The translations under genes were made by a program, and so were the position numbers. Shown piece after piece: positions 4,214 through 35,845 of a stretch of 64,000 nt of DNA (position 1 is its first letter; each line of letters opens with the position of its first letter). The DNA lies in the NCBI RefSeq assembly GCF_020085105.1, contig NC_058056.1:20225429-20289428 (forward strand), read 5' to 3'. This DNA comes from Siniperca chuatsi. Its lineage: Eukaryota > Chordata > Actinopteri > Centrarchiformes > Sinipercidae. Below the pieces are notes generated by a model. The model saw only the letters and a program-made list of their open reading frames with translations. It searched no databases and was not told where the DNA came from.

Positions 4214-9676
<5,463 letters not shown>

Positions 9677-11890: not shown

Positions 11891-14800
11891 ATGAACCCCG
11901 TTAATGCAACCGCTCTGTACGTGTCCGCCAGCCGGGCAGTGCTGCAGTGTGACCCGCGGCAGCCTCGCACCTTCGCAGAGATGTACAAGCTACTGCCCCT
12001 CTTCCGACAGTCCCTCGCATGCCTCGTTTGTGGTAAGCATCCTTAAAGTATTAGGGTGTAATAGCAATACATATCATTCGCTCTAATGTTGTTTTGTGTT
12101 ACCCCATTGCAAGATGATCATTGGTTTCGTACCGTAAATTAGTTTCACTTTGCTAAAGTGAATGAGTCTTTCATAACCTTACTATTCATATTGACTGAAG
12201 TGTCCGTGGGCGTGCGTGTGCCCGCAGCAGTTGACACGATTTGTCGTGCTCACCACCGTGGTCTCCTTAGCAACCGAGGCTGAGCCCCAGTCATCTGTCC
12301 TCTTGTCAAGATAGATGACTCCTCTGTTGTTGTGTCTGCTGCAGAGCCATGTGTTTTCTATTCATGCTTTATTTGCTCACTCCGGTTAGCTAGTGGAATA
12401 TTAACACTGGCACAGCTTGCATTTAGAGATGGGCAATATTGGCAGAATGCTATATGACAGTATTTCTGACCTCTGTCAATTATGCATGGTGTTTTTGGCA
12501 GTAAAAATCAGTAATGTGAACATAATGATTACGCAGGTTGGAGCCTTTATTTTTGTTTATTTAATACTGGGACAGATAAGTTAAGAAAAAAGTCAAAGAA
12601 ACACCAGCATTTAAGGTATAGAAATGATTAAAATCTCGCATTGAATTTTGGACTTTTGTTCAGACAAAACAAGATCACCTTAGGCTCTGGGAAATTGTGA
12701 TAGACATTTTTCATTGTCTCCTAGTGTTTAGAGACCAAATGGTTAATTGGGAAAATAATTGGCAGATTAATCAATTCTAATGGTAATTAGAACTGTTTCT
12801 TTAGAGGCCTGACAGTGAATGGATATGACTTTAAATTATTCTAGTACAACTAGTTGATTGTGCCATAGTTGCTGTATATAAGTGCAAAGTGGATACACGT
12901 GGATGAACAGCTCGCTCTTGTTTTTGTCTCAGGTAAACTGCTCCAGGATCCCATTTCCCCAACACATCCAGAGTGTCAGCATTATGTCTGCTTGGGCTGT
13001 AAAGGCCAAAAGATGCAGATCAGGCCGTCGTGCAGCCGCTGTAAGGACAATTCCTGCTTCCAGGAGAACAAACAGCTCTCTTTGCTGGTGCAATGCTACA
13101 GAAAGCTCTGCCTCTATGTAACTCATTCGCCGTTGCTGCAGTCAATCAGCAGCCATGTAGGAGGGTCTCCAGAGGTTATGGCCTTGCTAGAGGAGGTGTT
13201 AATGTCACACGAAGAGGAGATAGAGACAGAGCACCCAAGCCTAGCACAGGAAGATGTGAATCCCTCTGCCCCTGAGTCCCTTACCCCCACAGAGGCACCA
13301 CCTGCTCCTGCAGAGCTCTCAGCTGTACCACAGAGCTCGTCCTCTGACCCTCCCTGTTCCAATGGACTACAGGAATGCAATGGAGAAGTGCTGGAGGACC
13401 TGGATCCCTCGTCTCCTGAGCTGGAAGTATGCGAGCTGGTAGAGGAGCAGCCACAGGCAGGCCTGTCTGTGTCCAATACTGGTTGTGGTGGTCTGGAACT
13501 CAGTCTGACCACTGGACCTTTAGCCCCAACTCCAGGCACTGTGTGCTCACTCAGGGATGGGGGATCTAGCAGCAGGGAACTGGAGGAGGGGGAGGTGTTG
13601 CTTCTCAGTGTGGAGGAGGTGTTACAAACTTTGGATCCCCTTCAGCCCGGTCGAGATTCTGCTCATACACAGGCAGAAAGAACTCACACACACATAACCA
13701 CGGACAGAGCACACACTCAAATGTACATACAGCTGGACGCAGCTCACAACTACACACAGATACGAACAGACAGGACTAACACAGTGGCAAGCCATGGTGC
13801 TTACATACACACATCCTCCTTTGATCCTCCTCCAACCTCCAAGCCCCCGCCAGTCCGCCTTAAACGTAAACGATCTCGTTCAGAGAGTGACAGGGAAAAG
13901 GTGAAACCCCTCCCTATTGCCTCTATCCTGCAGGGCTCTTCCTCACATTTACACACTCCAAATCCCTCTCAGACACTGCACACGCAACCACCCACACCCT
14001 CCTTAACTGTACCAGCACACACATACTCGTCCCTTCCTAATGGGGCTACTCCCAAGCCCAGTCGCCCTGCCCCGAACCACAATAAAGGTGCCAGGAAGCA
14101 TGTCGATCCTGGCCCTAAGAAGCCCCATGCGAAGGCCCGCAGTGGTGGAGGCTCCAAGACCAAGGATGGAAGCAAAGACCAACGGTTGATGTCAGGCTGC
14201 CTTGTGCCCCCAGCGCCTGTCAGGCCTCCATATAAGAAGCCAGTGGAGAAGAAAGGCTGTAAGTGTGGCAGGGCCACCCAGAATCCGTCTGTGCTGACCT
14301 GCAGGGGGCAACGCTGTCCCTGCTACTCAAACCGCAAGGTGAGATTATGACCATTGCATATATGGAGTGTTTGGGGGCAATTTTTCATTGATTTTTACAG
14401 ACCACAAGCTACATTTTTTTATTTAACTAGCAGTTCAGAAGTGTAATGGCATCATCGTGTGATTGGGTGTAGATTATTGTTTTAACAATTTTATGTATTG
14501 TAAATGTAACATTTGTTGATAAAACTATAATACTTTTTAAAAATTGTTATTATTATATGGACCCCTGGAAGAGTAGTTGTCGCCAATATTACAACAAATG
14601 GGAATTCAAATGAACAAACTATGAATTGTAAGACCATTAATTGGCCTGTCTCGAAGCTTTATTTTTAAGGTAAAGATGAAAGAATTTTTAAACCACATTT
14701 GTAAAGAGAAGAACATTTGTGTAGATTGCCTGTTCATAATTAAATTCATGCACTATCATGCTGTTCTTATTCACTAGATTCTCAAAGTTACTCAAGGTTG

Positions 14801-15192
14801 GTGCAGAAATAATTTTGCAGCTTTTATGTTACATTGGTGTGATGCAAATACACTAATGTTCCTTGTCTATTTTTTGTCATCTTTCTCAGGCATGCTTGGA
14901 TTGTATCTGTCGAGGTTGCCAGAACTCCTACATGGCCAACGGTGAGAAGAAGCTAGAGGCCTTTGCCGTGCCAGAGAAAGCCTTGGAGCAGACACGGCTC
15001 ACACTCGGCATCAACCTCACCAGCATCACGGCGGCCGCGGCACTCCGCAACCCAGCAACCACCAGCATCCGTGCAAACACCCTCCTCAATGTTGCCACAG
15101 CAACGGGGACCCCCGTGACCACGGCCTTCCTGTCCCCCAGCCCCCCACAAGAGCCCAACTATGAGGACAGCCTGGAGCTGCTGATTGGATGA
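11891..15192 (+). CDS. msl2: MSL2, RING E3 ubiquitin ligase of the MSL complex, 3 exons, 616 aa, complete
   Basis: MSL2 works in the nucleus with MSL1, MSL3 and MOF (KAT8). Its RING finger ubiquitinates histone H2B, and the complex acetylates H4K16. Exons: 11891-12032, 12933-14338, 14890-15192, joined in phase to 1851 nt. The start MNPVNATALY is identical to human MSL2. The RING is complete: C44, C47, C62, H64, C67, C70, C81, C84. The conserved LLLSVEEVL (about 270-278), the basic KRKRSRSESD segment (about 358-367) and the Cys-rich CXC domain (C490 to C526, KGCKCGRATQNPS...) are all present. The C-terminus after VTTAFL differs from human. The middle (residues about 80-350) is poorly conserved and Pro/Ser-rich, with a His/Thr-rich stretch at about 292-342 coded by ACAC-rich DNA. 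Human MSL2 is about 577 aa. Confidence 0.97.
12650..12795. repeat. Family A MITE fragment, copy 2, in msl2 intron 1
   Basis: Contains 'caccttaggctctgggaaat', 'tgtgatagacatttttcatt' and 'agaccaaatggttaattggg', matching the interior of the copy at 1-231. The terminal GTTGCAGCCC end is eroded. Confidence 0.6.
14339..14889 (+). other. msl2: msl2 intron 2
   Basis: AT-rich intron separating the two halves of the CXC domain. It opens with GTGAGA and ends in 'ctttctcag'. I see nothing else in it. Confidence 0.8.
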
Positions 15193-18560: not shown

Positions 18561-21500
18561 TTAGCCCACAAGGAAGGCCCCAAAGTAGCTTGCCCTCCCG
18601 TCCATCTCCATGGTGCTGGCATTGCTAACAGTGATGAAGAGGCGGTCAGCAGGCTGTAGAAAGGCAGTTCCGGCCTGATGCAGGGAGAAGAGACCAGGCT
18701 CTGGACCCCGAGGCCAGCAGGCACTCCGGGACGATTTCATTAGCAGGATGGGCACAGTGTAGGAACTCATCTGTGGACCATATCACAAAAACAAGATCAA
18801 AACCTACATAAACAAAGCATTACATTATACATTATATTAGCATATAGCATTGATTTATAAGCATTATATCTTTCTGATACCGTCTTAAATGAATAGTTTC
18901 ATTTCTTACTTTTGGTGCATTCAAGGACACTCTGACATTTGAGGTTTGAGAGTTGGCTTGCATTCACGAGCTGTGTTATCAAATAATTATTACCCACAAT
19001 AAACTGACTGAATTTGCTTCACTTTGTGCAGCCTGACATTGTATTCTGTTGACAAGACACCTCGAACTGCAAACAAGGTCGGTTATTACTCTTTGTATTG
19101 TGCATTTTTAATCCATGGAGGTTTTATGTTTGTAAAACTTTCCCAGAGCCTAGCAAAGTGATTTTTATTTGTGTTACGTTATCCCAGTGTAAAGTCTATG
19201 GGCCGAGTGGGAAACCTGGAAGCTAGAAAACTTTTTTGGCTTATGCGCCAGGCAAGCAATTTTCATTCAAGTGAGTGATTGAAAAGGTTGCTGTTCGGCA
19301 GCCTACTCTCAACTCCAGATGCTGAAATGTCCTTGAACAGCTCGAAGATTTCAAACAGTCCTTGTTCACTATTGTATTACCACGCAATGATAACATGACG
19401 TTAACTGAATCAAATTATGGCTAAATGTTCATTGTAATGGATAATCTATCTCAAGCATGTTCCAATTCCAGGTATTATCCTTTAATAGGGTGCAGAATGC
19501 CTAACCTTCTTGTAGATATACTGGACAAGCTGTACTCCTTCCTCCTCTTTTGTTTCCCCTGTCTCCCCCTTTGCCTCCCCATCTGTCTCCCCCGTGGAGG
19601 GCAGTCTGAAATAGGTCTGTGCATAGATGTAGTAGAGGCCTGCTCTGGGCACCAGCAGCTCTCCTCCCCTCAGCTCCATGTTCTGCAGGAAGGACAAACC
19701 TCTCTGGCCCTCCCACGCTCTGATTCGCTCCCCCAGGTACCCCCTGCTGCTCCGCGAGCCTGCAACCGCACATAAAATCACACAAACAAGCAGAAACTCG
19801 CACATAAACACAACGACTAAGGCCATTCACTATGATGCAAGATCATTTGAGATTACAGGGTGGAGTGTTGACTGAGTATAAACAGTCACTGCTATTCAAA
19901 TAAGGAACAAATGTAAATAAGGTGTACAATTATACAATAATATTGACCAGCCACAGACCAGTGGCTGCCCAACAACGATTGCTTCTCTGATAGGCTAAAA
20001 TAATACTCAGCTATGTGTGCTAAAAAAACATTCATTGTTTTTCTTTCTGCAATGATACTTTGATCTGCAAAGTTCACTGACAACAACCACATGTTAGAGC
20101 ACCAGAAGGAACAGATGAGATCCAGCCACGCTGAGGGATGTGTATGTGTGTAAAGAAAGAAGGTTGACCAACCTTCTAGTTTTATGATATTCAGTAATAT
20201 ATTCCTTATGGACAACAAAATCCTTATATTTTTAACAAGTCCAATGAAAATACTCTCAATACTTTTCAACTTCTCCATTCTGTCTGTGGCTATCAGCCTC
20301 GAGCACATTTGTTCCCATTATAGACACAAATCTTTAAAAACGCGTCAAAAATATATACTTTCATTTTTTTAAAAGGGTAAATAATTTCCTAAAACAGCTG
20401 GGCACTGTAGTTTTCAGCAAACTTTGCTCAAACAGGTGTGGTGGTAAATAGTGCATCTGTTGGGGACTATTTTCCACCACGGATCAATACACATTTGGTG
20501 CTCTAGTAAGTGTTTAAGGCAGCAGGACGTGTATGTGGGATTGACTCAAAATAAACTACAGTGCCCAGGTTTATTATAATTAAGGAATATGTCACCCAAT
20601 GCAGCGGTGTGGCCCACTGATGTGTTTTTAATTGTTTTTGGACAATGATGGTGCTCTATGGCTCAGAATAATAAGATATATCAAGCTTTGGCTACATGGG
20701 CAATGCTTGTTAGTAGGATCAGTTCATTGCTGATTTTAGTCATTTCATGGAATTTATTCACAATAAATAAATAAATAATAAATAGGGAACATTACCAGAC
20801 TTATTCTTTAAAGGCAACAGTGTAGAATTACAAAAACTTTGACTTTGGCGTCCCCCAGTGGTAGTATCAAAAAAGACACTGTGGCAGATAGTAATGCATG
20901 CTGCTTCCCCACATCCCCCCTCCTTCCCACAGACCTCACTGAGGATACAGAGATGAATGGTCTGAGGGCAGCACATAGACTGCACTAATTTTCAAGATTC
21001 AAATAATTATTTGTCACTTACTCATATGAATAAGGATATTAATAACATATATTATTATCATATTACTCATTTTAATGGGGATTTTAACAAGTTTCTAGAA
21101 ACAAAAACTTAAAAACTCAGAACAATTTGAAAAATGCTATGGCTTTGAATGGAGTGAAACCAAATGTATTTGTAACTGGCTCAACTAAATGAAAATAAAA
21201 ACGAAATGAAATTAAAAAGTTTTTTTAATTGCTGAGTACCTTGCATCATTCAAAAACGAATTAAAATGGTTGAATGGTTGAACTTTAATTTAATGACTTG
21301 TGGTGGGATGCTTTTTCCTCCTTGTTAGAGATGTGTGTTTCCCAGAATTTGGTGATAAAATAAACATCTTCTGAGTAAAAGAGTTGAAAACTAGGGGTGT
21401 TTTCATGGTCAAGTGGTCTATCACACATATCGTAATCGTACAAGTTGCATGCTATCGCCTCTGTCTGCTAAATGAATGTGAAAATGCCATAAAACGAATC

Positions 21501-31430: not shown

Positions 31431-34400
31431 TTACAAGTTGTTCTTGAGCCAGTTGAGGTAACCCCTGAGTGCTCTCTTCCCTACATCAAATTCCAATGGC
31501 CAGGTTATAAAGCTGAAACATCCGTGGAAGCCGTCCTCATAGTGGTCGTTGGTAACTGTGACACCTGCATCCTGTAAGCGCCGTGCGTACATCAGGCCAT
31601 CATCTCTCAACACGTCATGCTCGCATGTTAGGATGTACGCCCGAGGGCATTTAGCCAAAACCTCTGGTCCTGCTAACAGTGGTGCTGCCCTCACATCCAG
31701 CAGCCCCTGCAACTCCTTCACTGCCCCCTGTGTACCTTTTTCCACAATCAGAGGCTTGTAGTTCTTCTTGTATTTCGGGGGACAGGAGGACGGTCCAGTC
31801 TAGCCGTGCCCTCAGCTCTGGGGTGATGTTTGAGTGGTGTAAGGAGCTGTGGTTGTTTGCCATCAACTGGGACTGCAGGGAGAGGTCAGCACCGAGGTAC
31901 TGCAGCCAGAAGCGGACCATGAGGGGCCGGTAGAGGATGGGTATGTATTGGTTCTGCAAGTAGGAGGGCGTGTTGAAGTCCAGAGCCTGGAGCACTGGGT
32001 AGATCAACGTCTGGACGCTGAATTTCACACTCATAGTGTCATCTATGGAAATCTGGGGAAATATAAAAACATATAAGGCCTTAATCTCTTGATTTATTTC
32101 TACAGTGCATTGTTACACACAATGCTACAGGAGATGGCTTCTGTATGTACCTCCTGAGCGACCGCAGCAGCCAGGTTTCCTCCAGCACTGTCACCTGACA
32201 CAGCCACACGCTCTGGGTCGATTGCATACCTGGCCAAAACCTCTGGGGACAAGAAGTGCTTGGCAGCAGCGAGGCAGTCTAAATACGGCACCGGGAAGTG
32301 CACCTCTGGATACAGACGATACCTACACAGACATTGATTGACAAATGATAATTTACTGGAGGTTTAGAAAGCTTTGGAAAATGTGATTGTAAGCACTCAG
32401 TTCACTTGACGTGAGGAGTCAACCTGTAAAAACAGTTGTATAATATCATCTGTGGCTCTGAAGGGAGCTTTCCAAAGTCTGAGTTAACTTACAAATAAGC
32501 TTTTTATGTTTCTTAAAGTATAGATCTGTATCAGCAACAGTAGATTAATGCTGCAGGAGGAGACACACTTACTCAACAGAGACCACAACGGTGTTGAGCT
32601 CGTCAGACAACATCCGGTTGATAGCATCATATGACCCCTTCTCTGAGGATGGGCGAGAGAAATGGAGGAGTACTGAATTATCCATTTACTTGAAAGTTTA
32701 GTTACTACTCCTCTTGTGGAATCTGGACAAATCAATCTCCTTAAAGGCAGACAATGTAACATATCACATTCAATAAAACAACTGAAAATACTATCAATCT
32801 GCAGGTTTCTTAAGGCCAAATTTAAGATATTAATGTTGCGTTTATGGTTTGCATTTATTTTTAATAATATTTAAAATACAAAATAAAGAAACAAAGCTCA
32901 CAAAACAAGCCTTTTTCCAACTGAATACAGGGCTAAGAGCAAAAACTATAGAGAGAAATAATATGCACATTGTGCTACTAACACTGGGTGCACTATTTGC
33001 ACCTGTAAAGCAAAAACATTTCTGATTATGTGATATTAATATTACTAAGACAGAAAGAATGTCCGTACTCACTGGCACTGCCGAGGGCCCAGCCTCCTCC
33101 GTGGAAATACATCAACCCCCTCCTCAGGTGCCCCTCCCCTCCAGCCGGGGGCTCATAAACACGAACTGGGATGCCGACGAAAGTGATGTCGCTGACTTTC
33201 ACTCCAGGCATGACCCCCCCGCCGGACTCAGAATTGTGCAGCCCCTTCATCATGCCCTCGAAGCCCTCTGTGGACTGCCTGATTGACTTGATGTAATGGT
33301 CAAAACCCAGCCAAGCCTTCAAAGAGGCCTGAAGACAGCGAAGGGAGGGAAGAGTAAATAAAACTACACCTTGAGTGTAGCTTCATAGCAGACAAATGAA
33401 AGATTCAAGACATATTCAAGCAACTAGTGTAAACAGCAGGTGGGAGAAAGGAATTTGGGAAAAGACAATCTCTTGGCAGAGACTTGAGACACAAGTGTCT
33501 CACCCAGTCACCTCTGTCCTTCTGCACTGTATCTTACTGATGTTTCTCAGCATGTCTGCCCTCCTCCACACAAACATCTCATACTGTCTTAATAGTTGGG
33601 TTCAACCAAGGCCAGCAGACACAGCTGCTTGGCACAGTGGGGGCTCAGAACCAGCTAGCTACACCGAGACATGTTGGCCTTAATAAATATCGGTTTTATC
33701 AATTTATTAGACTTTTGAATGTCACTTGAAATGTCAGTTGGATGAAAAGAATTTGGGGGTGTTGAGTTAGTTCTACTGTATCAATTTTGCTCCCTTTCTT
33801 TTTAAACTGTCCATCGTGAGTCTGACAGTGTTAGTGCAATGCTAAATCAGTGGAGTACTCTTTTAATAAAATCAGTATCTTCCACGCATGAGATCAGTGC
33901 ATCCCTTCTTTGGATGTATTTTAATAAACTTCCTTAGCTAACTGCACCCGGAATAAAAGAAAAGAAATATTTCATTCTAAGTGCAATCAGCATTTTAAAC
34001 CCAAAAAACAAAGTCACAAATCTTGCCTCACAGTATTTCATTTGATGTTTTAATGCTTTTTAATGCTTTGTTTTATGTACTTTTTCTGAATTCTTTCAGT
34101 TATCACATTTATTCTGTGTGTTCTTGTGCTGCTTTTATGTTTTATGTGAGCTGCAATTTTCAACAACAATAAAGTTGTATTCTATTCCATTCTATTATCA
34201 AAAACCTATTTTTTCACTAGTGAGTTTTTAAAACAACTTTGTTATATTTATAATACGTGAACACACTCTTGCACATAATGTCAGCTGCAGAAAAGATAAA
34301 AAGAGCAATTTATCTCAGTGCAGTTTAAAGCCTTTTAAGCCTCTTCTTCTACAGTACATCATACTCAAACTAGATGCTGTGGACTGTTTTAAATGTTAAA

Positions 34401-35845
34401 AGAACACATTTAAACCAAAATGACAATGGCAGACCAGTCCACTAGTAGGACCTAACTTAATCTTATCTCAGTGGCTTCTTTCACACTTCATTATCTGGAA
34501 AAGAAAGATACAATAAAATGTAAAATGTTGTATAAAGAGTTTTATCTGCTTTGGAGCAAACAAGACCTCATAAGCAGCACATTAATCTGCAAACTCCCTC
34601 AGCCAGTGTGGCAATAACTGATAACATTACTCTTCACCTACCGTGTCGATGTAGAACAAAGGTGAGGGTAAAGACACAGGCCCAGAATAAACTCCCTGGT
34701 GACAGCTTTGCAATAGATTAGCATTATGACAGCCAGCGTGACAGTTTTAAATATCAACCTGTTAATCTACTGAAAAAGCTCGGTAACACTTTATTTGAAG
34801 ATGTGAAGACACCTGACATGAAAATGAAGTCTTTATTAAGGTTTATGACTTTGTCATTAAGTGTCATTCGGTCAATTATGTCACTTTTAATGCAAAGCTG
34901 ACATTGTTTGAGATGTCTTTGTTATGACAACTTGACATTAAACAAGAAAACATAACCATAAACATGCCATAGCAGGCTTAATTATCAAACGATTTAGCTT
35001 TATGTGTTAAAATTACATTATACTGTCATATGTGCTTGGTTTTGACAATGACTGTCATGAGACCATTATAATTGTGTCATGAATAATTCCCTTGACCTCA
35101 AGTGAAGTGAAACCATTTGGACTTGTCATAAAGATGTCAGTAATGTTATAATGCCAGTTTGCCAGATTTATGGAGTTTCCAGATGGACAGAAAGCTTTAC
35201 TTGTTGCTAAAGCAACGTTAGCTAACTTAACCACATTGGTGGTGGTTGAGGTGAGTTTCCCCCCTTCACTGTGAAGCACTTTGGGTATCAAGATAAAACG
35301 CTAACGTTATAGAAATGTAATCCATTATTATTATTAATATAACTGCTAACTGCTGCTAATTGTAACTTCAAATAAATACACATTGTAAGACAACGATTTT
35401 GCAACTATGCAGACGCTAAAGTTGGGCATTTCAGGGTTAATGTTATTGAACACATGGCATAAGTAGGGAGGGTCAAAGTCCTTGTCTGCACAGGTGTGTT
35501 ACTGTGTTGGAGGTTAAGAGGTGGGTCTTTTATTTATAACAACTGCTATATTTGATCTTATTTAGCTGAAACAGTGCGCAGATAAGGGTGAAGATTTTGT
35601 GCAGATTAGATCACAGATGAAGTTGCTGCACCTGCTGTATCCAGCTGTCCACTTACAGCACATATACCAGAATTTATTCCCAGTGAATACATCTCCTCTC
35701 TTACCAGGTGCATCGTTGTCCGGAATCCAGCATCCAGCATCATCAACTTCCACGGCTCCTGGATGGCATCAGGCAGCGGGATGTAAACGTAATAAGCCAC
35801 CGCCACCGTTAATAACACTGTAACAACACCTGGCAGCAGCCTCAT
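31431..35845 (-). CDS. nceh1: Neutral cholesterol ester hydrolase 1, 5 exons, with a 1-bp frameshift in the last exon
   Basis: NCEH1 (AADACL1/KIAA1363) is an ER-anchored serine hydrolase of the AADAC/hormone-sensitive-lipase type that cleaves cholesteryl esters and acetylated ether lipids. Exons: 35705-35845, 33073-33328, 32573-32642, 32151-32322, 31431-32052. The N-terminal anchor (about 5-20) and YYVYIPLPDAIQEPWKLM (18-35) match NCEH1 rather than AADAC. The oxyanion motif HGGG is at 123-126 and the nucleophile motif GDSAGG at 199-204 (Ser201). The last exon starts ISIDDTMSVKF and contains LIYPVLQALDFNTPSY. At 31777-31781 a run of five G (+ strand) puts the rest out of frame: the upstream frame stops within about 43 codons. 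The downstream frame carries CEHDVLRDDG and DGFHGC, which hold the catalytic Asp and His. Removing one base leaves 1260 nt (419 aa) against 408 aa in human. It is either a sequencing error or a recent null allele. Confidence 0.9.
34030..34200. repeat. Possible LINE 3' tail in nceh1 intron 1
   Basis: 'caacaataaagttgtattct' runs into a degenerate ATTCT/ATTCC repeat at about 34176-34198, as is common at the 3' ends of some fish non-LTR retrotransposons. No coding part remains. Confidence 0.35.
34786..35180. repeat. Possible DNA-transposon relic with GTCAT-rich interior, nceh1 intron 1
   Basis: Begins 'cggtaacactttatttgaag', a terminus of a type common to fish non-autonomous elements. It is followed by many 'tgtcat'/'atgacaa' words and a near-inverted pair 'gacatgaaaatgaag' and 'acttgtcataaagatg'. 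A matching right end 'aagtgttacc' was not found, so it is probably truncated. Confidence 0.4.

Follow-up and report, generated by a model that had tools for sequence, protein, structure and literature searches.

The 64,000-nucleotide stretch of Siniperca chuatsi DNA analysed here (the window) carries an nceh1 gene whose last exon changes reading frame at a run of five C residues on the coding strand, and the net disruption is exactly one base. The surplus C would be an error of the consensus (assembly) sequence, the animal's own gene being intact, a reading to which we give a probability of roughly 0.55 and which is slightly favoured over a young null allele; the weights given to these two readings are estimates, not computed values. 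Under the favoured reading an ordinary nceh1 would have gained one surplus C in the last-exon C5 run during consensus building, and we infer that the base is absent from the animal's DNA.

Gene content of the window

The gene model on the window gives nceh1 five exons on the minus strand (35845-31431), and three further genes were recognised:

4214-9676, minus strand: PCCB (propionyl-CoA carboxylase beta), 15 exons, 1683 nt, automatic model, open throughout
11891-15192, plus strand: MSL2, three exons, 616 codons and stop, intact
18561-19754, minus strand: gene with a TNF domain, interpreted as TNFSF10; both modelled TNF exons in frame
31431..31776, minus strand: nceh1 exon 5 after the switch, +1 frame; Asp (CEHDVLRDD), His (DGFHGC)
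31777..31781: frame-switch site, G5 run (C5 on the coding strand), one surplus base
31782..32052, minus strand: nceh1 exon 5 before the switch, zero frame
32151..32322, minus strand: nceh1 exon 4, 172 nt; nucleophile motif GDSAGG (Ser201)
32573..32642, minus strand: nceh1 exon 3, 70 nt, GT-AG
33073..33328, minus strand: nceh1 exon 2, 256 nt, GT-AG; oxyanion-hole motif HGGG (His123)
35705..35845, minus strand: nceh1 exon 1, ATG, 141 nt, donor GTAAGAGA; presumably the signal-anchor region

The nceh1 exons sum to a CDS of 1261 nt (141+256+70+172+622), leaving a remainder of 1 on division by 3, and the last of them (31431-32052, minus strand, 622 nt) has the acceptor TTCCCCAG and the stop TAA. The first-pass annotation had given the same coordinates for this exon, had named the gene nceh1 and had described the other splice sites as intact; the gene model bears out the coordinates, the name probably holds, and all four introns are GT-AG. 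The automatic splice model of PCCB may err by one or two codons at its junctions, one of which seems short of two residues when compared with a bacterial homologue, and the TNF gene model consists of two TNF-domain exons only, the first beginning at an arbitrary in-frame point. Between 36000 and 64000 no coding gene was recognised, eight tested ORFs giving no Pfam match at E 0.001, and dinucleotide repeats are many. A search of the window against Rfam at the gathering threshold gave 0 matches.

Identity of the nceh1 product

Judged by its sequence the gene is predicted to encode an ordinary teleost neutral cholesterol ester hydrolase 1 (NCEH1), a serine hydrolase of the GDXG/HSL type. The ORF containing the exon 4 nucleophile matches PF07859 (Abhydrolase_3) with E 2.1e-16 and the +1-frame piece with the Asp and His matches Pfam Abhydrolase_3 with E 2.3e-13; at E 0.001 no Pfam match was obtained for the ORFs that cover exon 2 and the last exon in the zero frame. 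The second part of the last exon also aligns to solved HSL-family esterases across the Asp and His motifs. When the gene is read across the C5 run its catalytic residues are His123, Ser201, Asp359 and His389, those of mouse NCEH1 being listed as 113, 191, 348 and 378 (PMC9229287). The offset between fish and mouse is 10 to 11 residues throughout and the spacing of the triad agrees within one residue. The name NCEH1 is predicted because of this mouse-like spacing, because of sequence motifs of the NCEH1 kind, and because of the adjoining TNF-domain gene, which bears on the choice between NCEH1 and another AADAC member. In mammals TNFSF10 and NCEH1 adjoin. TNFSF10 is described as the usual neighbour of GHS-Ra in tetrapods, with NCEH1 listed as the neighbour in one marsupial (PMC4797157).

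Reading frames of the last exon

The phase switches at the coding-strand C5 run 31781-31777, the letters of which are identical in assembly record L003. Up to LLSP the exon reads as NCEH1 in the zero frame, which then runs into about 41 foreign residues and a stop at codon 347, and after the run NCEH1 continues in the +1 frame to the terminal stop. Past the run there are five in-frame stops in the zero frame, nine in the third frame and only the terminal one in the +1 frame, which is open over 115 codons after the switch; an open frame of 114 codons was seen in 42 of 20,000 mononucleotide shuffles. As written, the catalytic Asp and His are found only in the +1 frame and not in that of the Ser, and the earlier claim that both are lost agrees with a translation that ends at codon 347. 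Among the papers listed on nceh1 in connection with fish and teleosts, frameshifts, pseudogenes, the catalytic triad and nceh1a, none was found to report this lesion.

Relatives of nceh1 and the age of the lesion

Relatives of the gene were sought in the 718.8-Mb assembly (65 contigs, the window included). The last exon occurs once at 100% and once, on contig C19, at 70%, and its second part matches four places, namely itself, C19 (60%), C7 (48%) and the more distant C2 (44%). C19 thus carries a second nceh1 paralogue, the existence of which the first-pass annotation had left to be checked, and C7 carries another; in both the last exon is open across the site in a single frame. The C19 locus, read as open pieces among which no first exon was recognised, includes further ones with HGGGW and GDSAGG, and this sister gene is apparently intact; the C7 paralogue was read from its last exon alone. 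In an alignment of the window copy, C19 and C7 no gap falls at the switch, a 4-residue gap in C7 lying some nine residues beyond, and because the paralogue exons align through the switch in this way the window copy has a net excess of one base, as had been claimed and as the length of the CDS also indicates. No second nceh1 was found within the window, the sole other match having E 0.17, and no relatives were found among the viral contigs; a search of the genome contigs collection gave one bacterial match, which was left unused. An 18-base pattern of the site had one match in a viral contig, which was taken as chance, 301 bases there being unlike nceh1.

Identity between the window copy and C19 is 58/91 (63.7%) before the switch and 67/115 (58.3%) after it, between the window copy and C7 40/87 and 52/115, and between C19 and C7 43/87 (49.4%) and 50/115 (43.5%). 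With C7 as outgroup, the window copy has 9 changes of its own before the switch and 6 past it; for C19 the corresponding figures are 6 and 8. There is no clear decay past the switch, which speaks against a long decay and not against a recent loss, since the counts are small and the paralogues old.

Base accuracy of the assembly

Elsewhere the assembly looks good, which tempers the reading of the surplus C as an error. MSL2 (1851 nt), PCCB (1683 nt) and the two TNF exons (459 nt) are in frame, so that there is one break in 5254 nt of window coding models, nceh1 included. These models contain 21 runs of at least five bases, of which 20 are in frame, three-base errors being invisible to this test, and the G7 run of nceh1 exon 2 and the C6 run of MSL2 are both in frame. 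Genome-wide, all nine full-length single-exon frizzled domains (39/39 candidates scored) are open and stop-free, a further 20 frizzled match rows being partial pieces that were taken for exons of multi-exon members.

The 7tm_1 calibration drew on a biased sample (147/1102 candidates scored) from which 11 loci were opened, all with the match cut short or split, and one of the 11 (L015) has an apparent frame switch. Readable GT-AG introns are found in L018, L019 and L021, L020 is open throughout, L012, L016 and L017 were judged from frame alone, and L013, L014 and L022 were assigned neither as open nor as broken, the frames listed for them leaving out open-ended ones. L015 (C16:27081300-27082500; match C16:27081339), which we take to be a TAAR-like receptor, switches frame near its end and is possibly another pseudogene or base error. 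Further odd 7tm_1 rows lie outside the opened loci, one of them (C17:7328748) with 22 stops.

Origin of the surplus base

In our judgement a lone surplus base, in a gene that is conserved and has no other lesion, is explained somewhat better by an error than by a rare young null. The CDS is wrong by exactly one base with the remainder of the model intact, the triad spacing across the run is like that of mouse, the last exons of C19 and C7 align with no gap at the site, and the window copy has no more unique changes after the switch than C19 (6 vs 8, with 9 vs 6 before it). Furthermore, short consensus indels that cause frameshifts are described by the Nature 2021 VGP paper as the commonest errors of its own CLR-based assemblies. 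Against an error stand the accuracy seen in the coding runs and frizzled domains, the single apparent switch among the opened 7tm_1 loci, the shortness of a C5 run as a place for sequencing error, and the somewhat lower window-C19 identity past the switch, although C19-C7 identity drops likewise. If the base is an error, automatic annotation would label the gene as truncated or of low quality, and one base of the record would have to be corrected.

That the surplus base is instead present in the animal, as a young null allele that arose by slippage in the C5 run and is either segregating or recently fixed, is a substantial possibility falling somewhat short of an even chance. Frame breaks are few elsewhere in the assembly, paralogues with open last exons (C19 and C7) could cover the loss, and two knockout mouse models are described as having no gross phenotype, although adrenal enlargement and higher sensitivity to organophosphates are mentioned as well (PMC9229287). 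Since nceh1 has no further disabling change and shows no clear relaxed evolution past the switch, the allele would however have to be very young, and for that reason it is a priori uncommon. A real allele would give a protein of 346 residues, the last 41 or so foreign, without the catalytic Asp or His. With the stop in the last exon its mRNA should escape nonsense-mediated decay. It is doubtful that this is a natural, recent and fixed loss of catalytic NCEH1 in which C19 carries the activity and a stable but dead 346-residue protein is made. A real null would be a natural nceh1 knockout with apparently intact duplicates, and could probe the role of the enzyme beyond the mild phenotype of the mouse.

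The remaining explanations are each very improbable. An old, fixed pseudogene would account for the frameshift itself and for nothing else, as the start and splice sites are intact, the +1 frame has stayed open, the catalytic motifs are kept, window-only changes are not in excess after the switch, and neither several disabling changes nor clear relaxed evolution was found; the earlier preference for an assembly error or a young null allele is supported here, there being no clear post-switch decay and the neighbouring genes being unbroken. Programmed +1 ribosomal frameshifting at UCC-CCC-GAA would make use of a C-rich slippery stretch that is indeed present, but both paralogue exons read in one frame, and in antizyme a stop codon sits at the shift site, which in nceh1 it does not. 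An RNA fold that might stimulate shifting was no better near the run than in shuffles (z -0.18 downstream, +0.53 across), and programmed frameshifting was rejected on account of the paralogues and the fold. Finally, a cryptic intron within the last exon could formally restore the frame through any of 195 GT/GC-AG pairs spaced 60 to 399 nt (introns of 60 nt or more were enumerated), yet every pair deletes 60 nt or more of the coding sequence, and the acceptors of the eight best-scoring pairs have 5-7 pyrimidines in 12 against 7-10 in the real acceptors of exons 2-5. Donor scores overlap, so the case against such introns, which were judged implausible, rests mainly on the residues that would be lost.

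Comparison with known systems

Loss-of-function alleles of duplicated teleost genes are a familiar kind, with which the lesion shares a one-base indel in a short run and the presence of paralogues. With the frameshift errors of vertebrate assemblies described in the VGP papers (PMC8081667, PMC9516821) it shares a single short coding indel in an otherwise intact gene, and differs in that for the fish nceh1 base we infer the error. The gene likewise has the HGGG, GDSAG, Asp and His motifs of NCEH1 (KIAA1363, AADACL1), a member of the AADAC family of GDXG serine hydrolases, but as written it ends before the Asp and His, through one surplus base.
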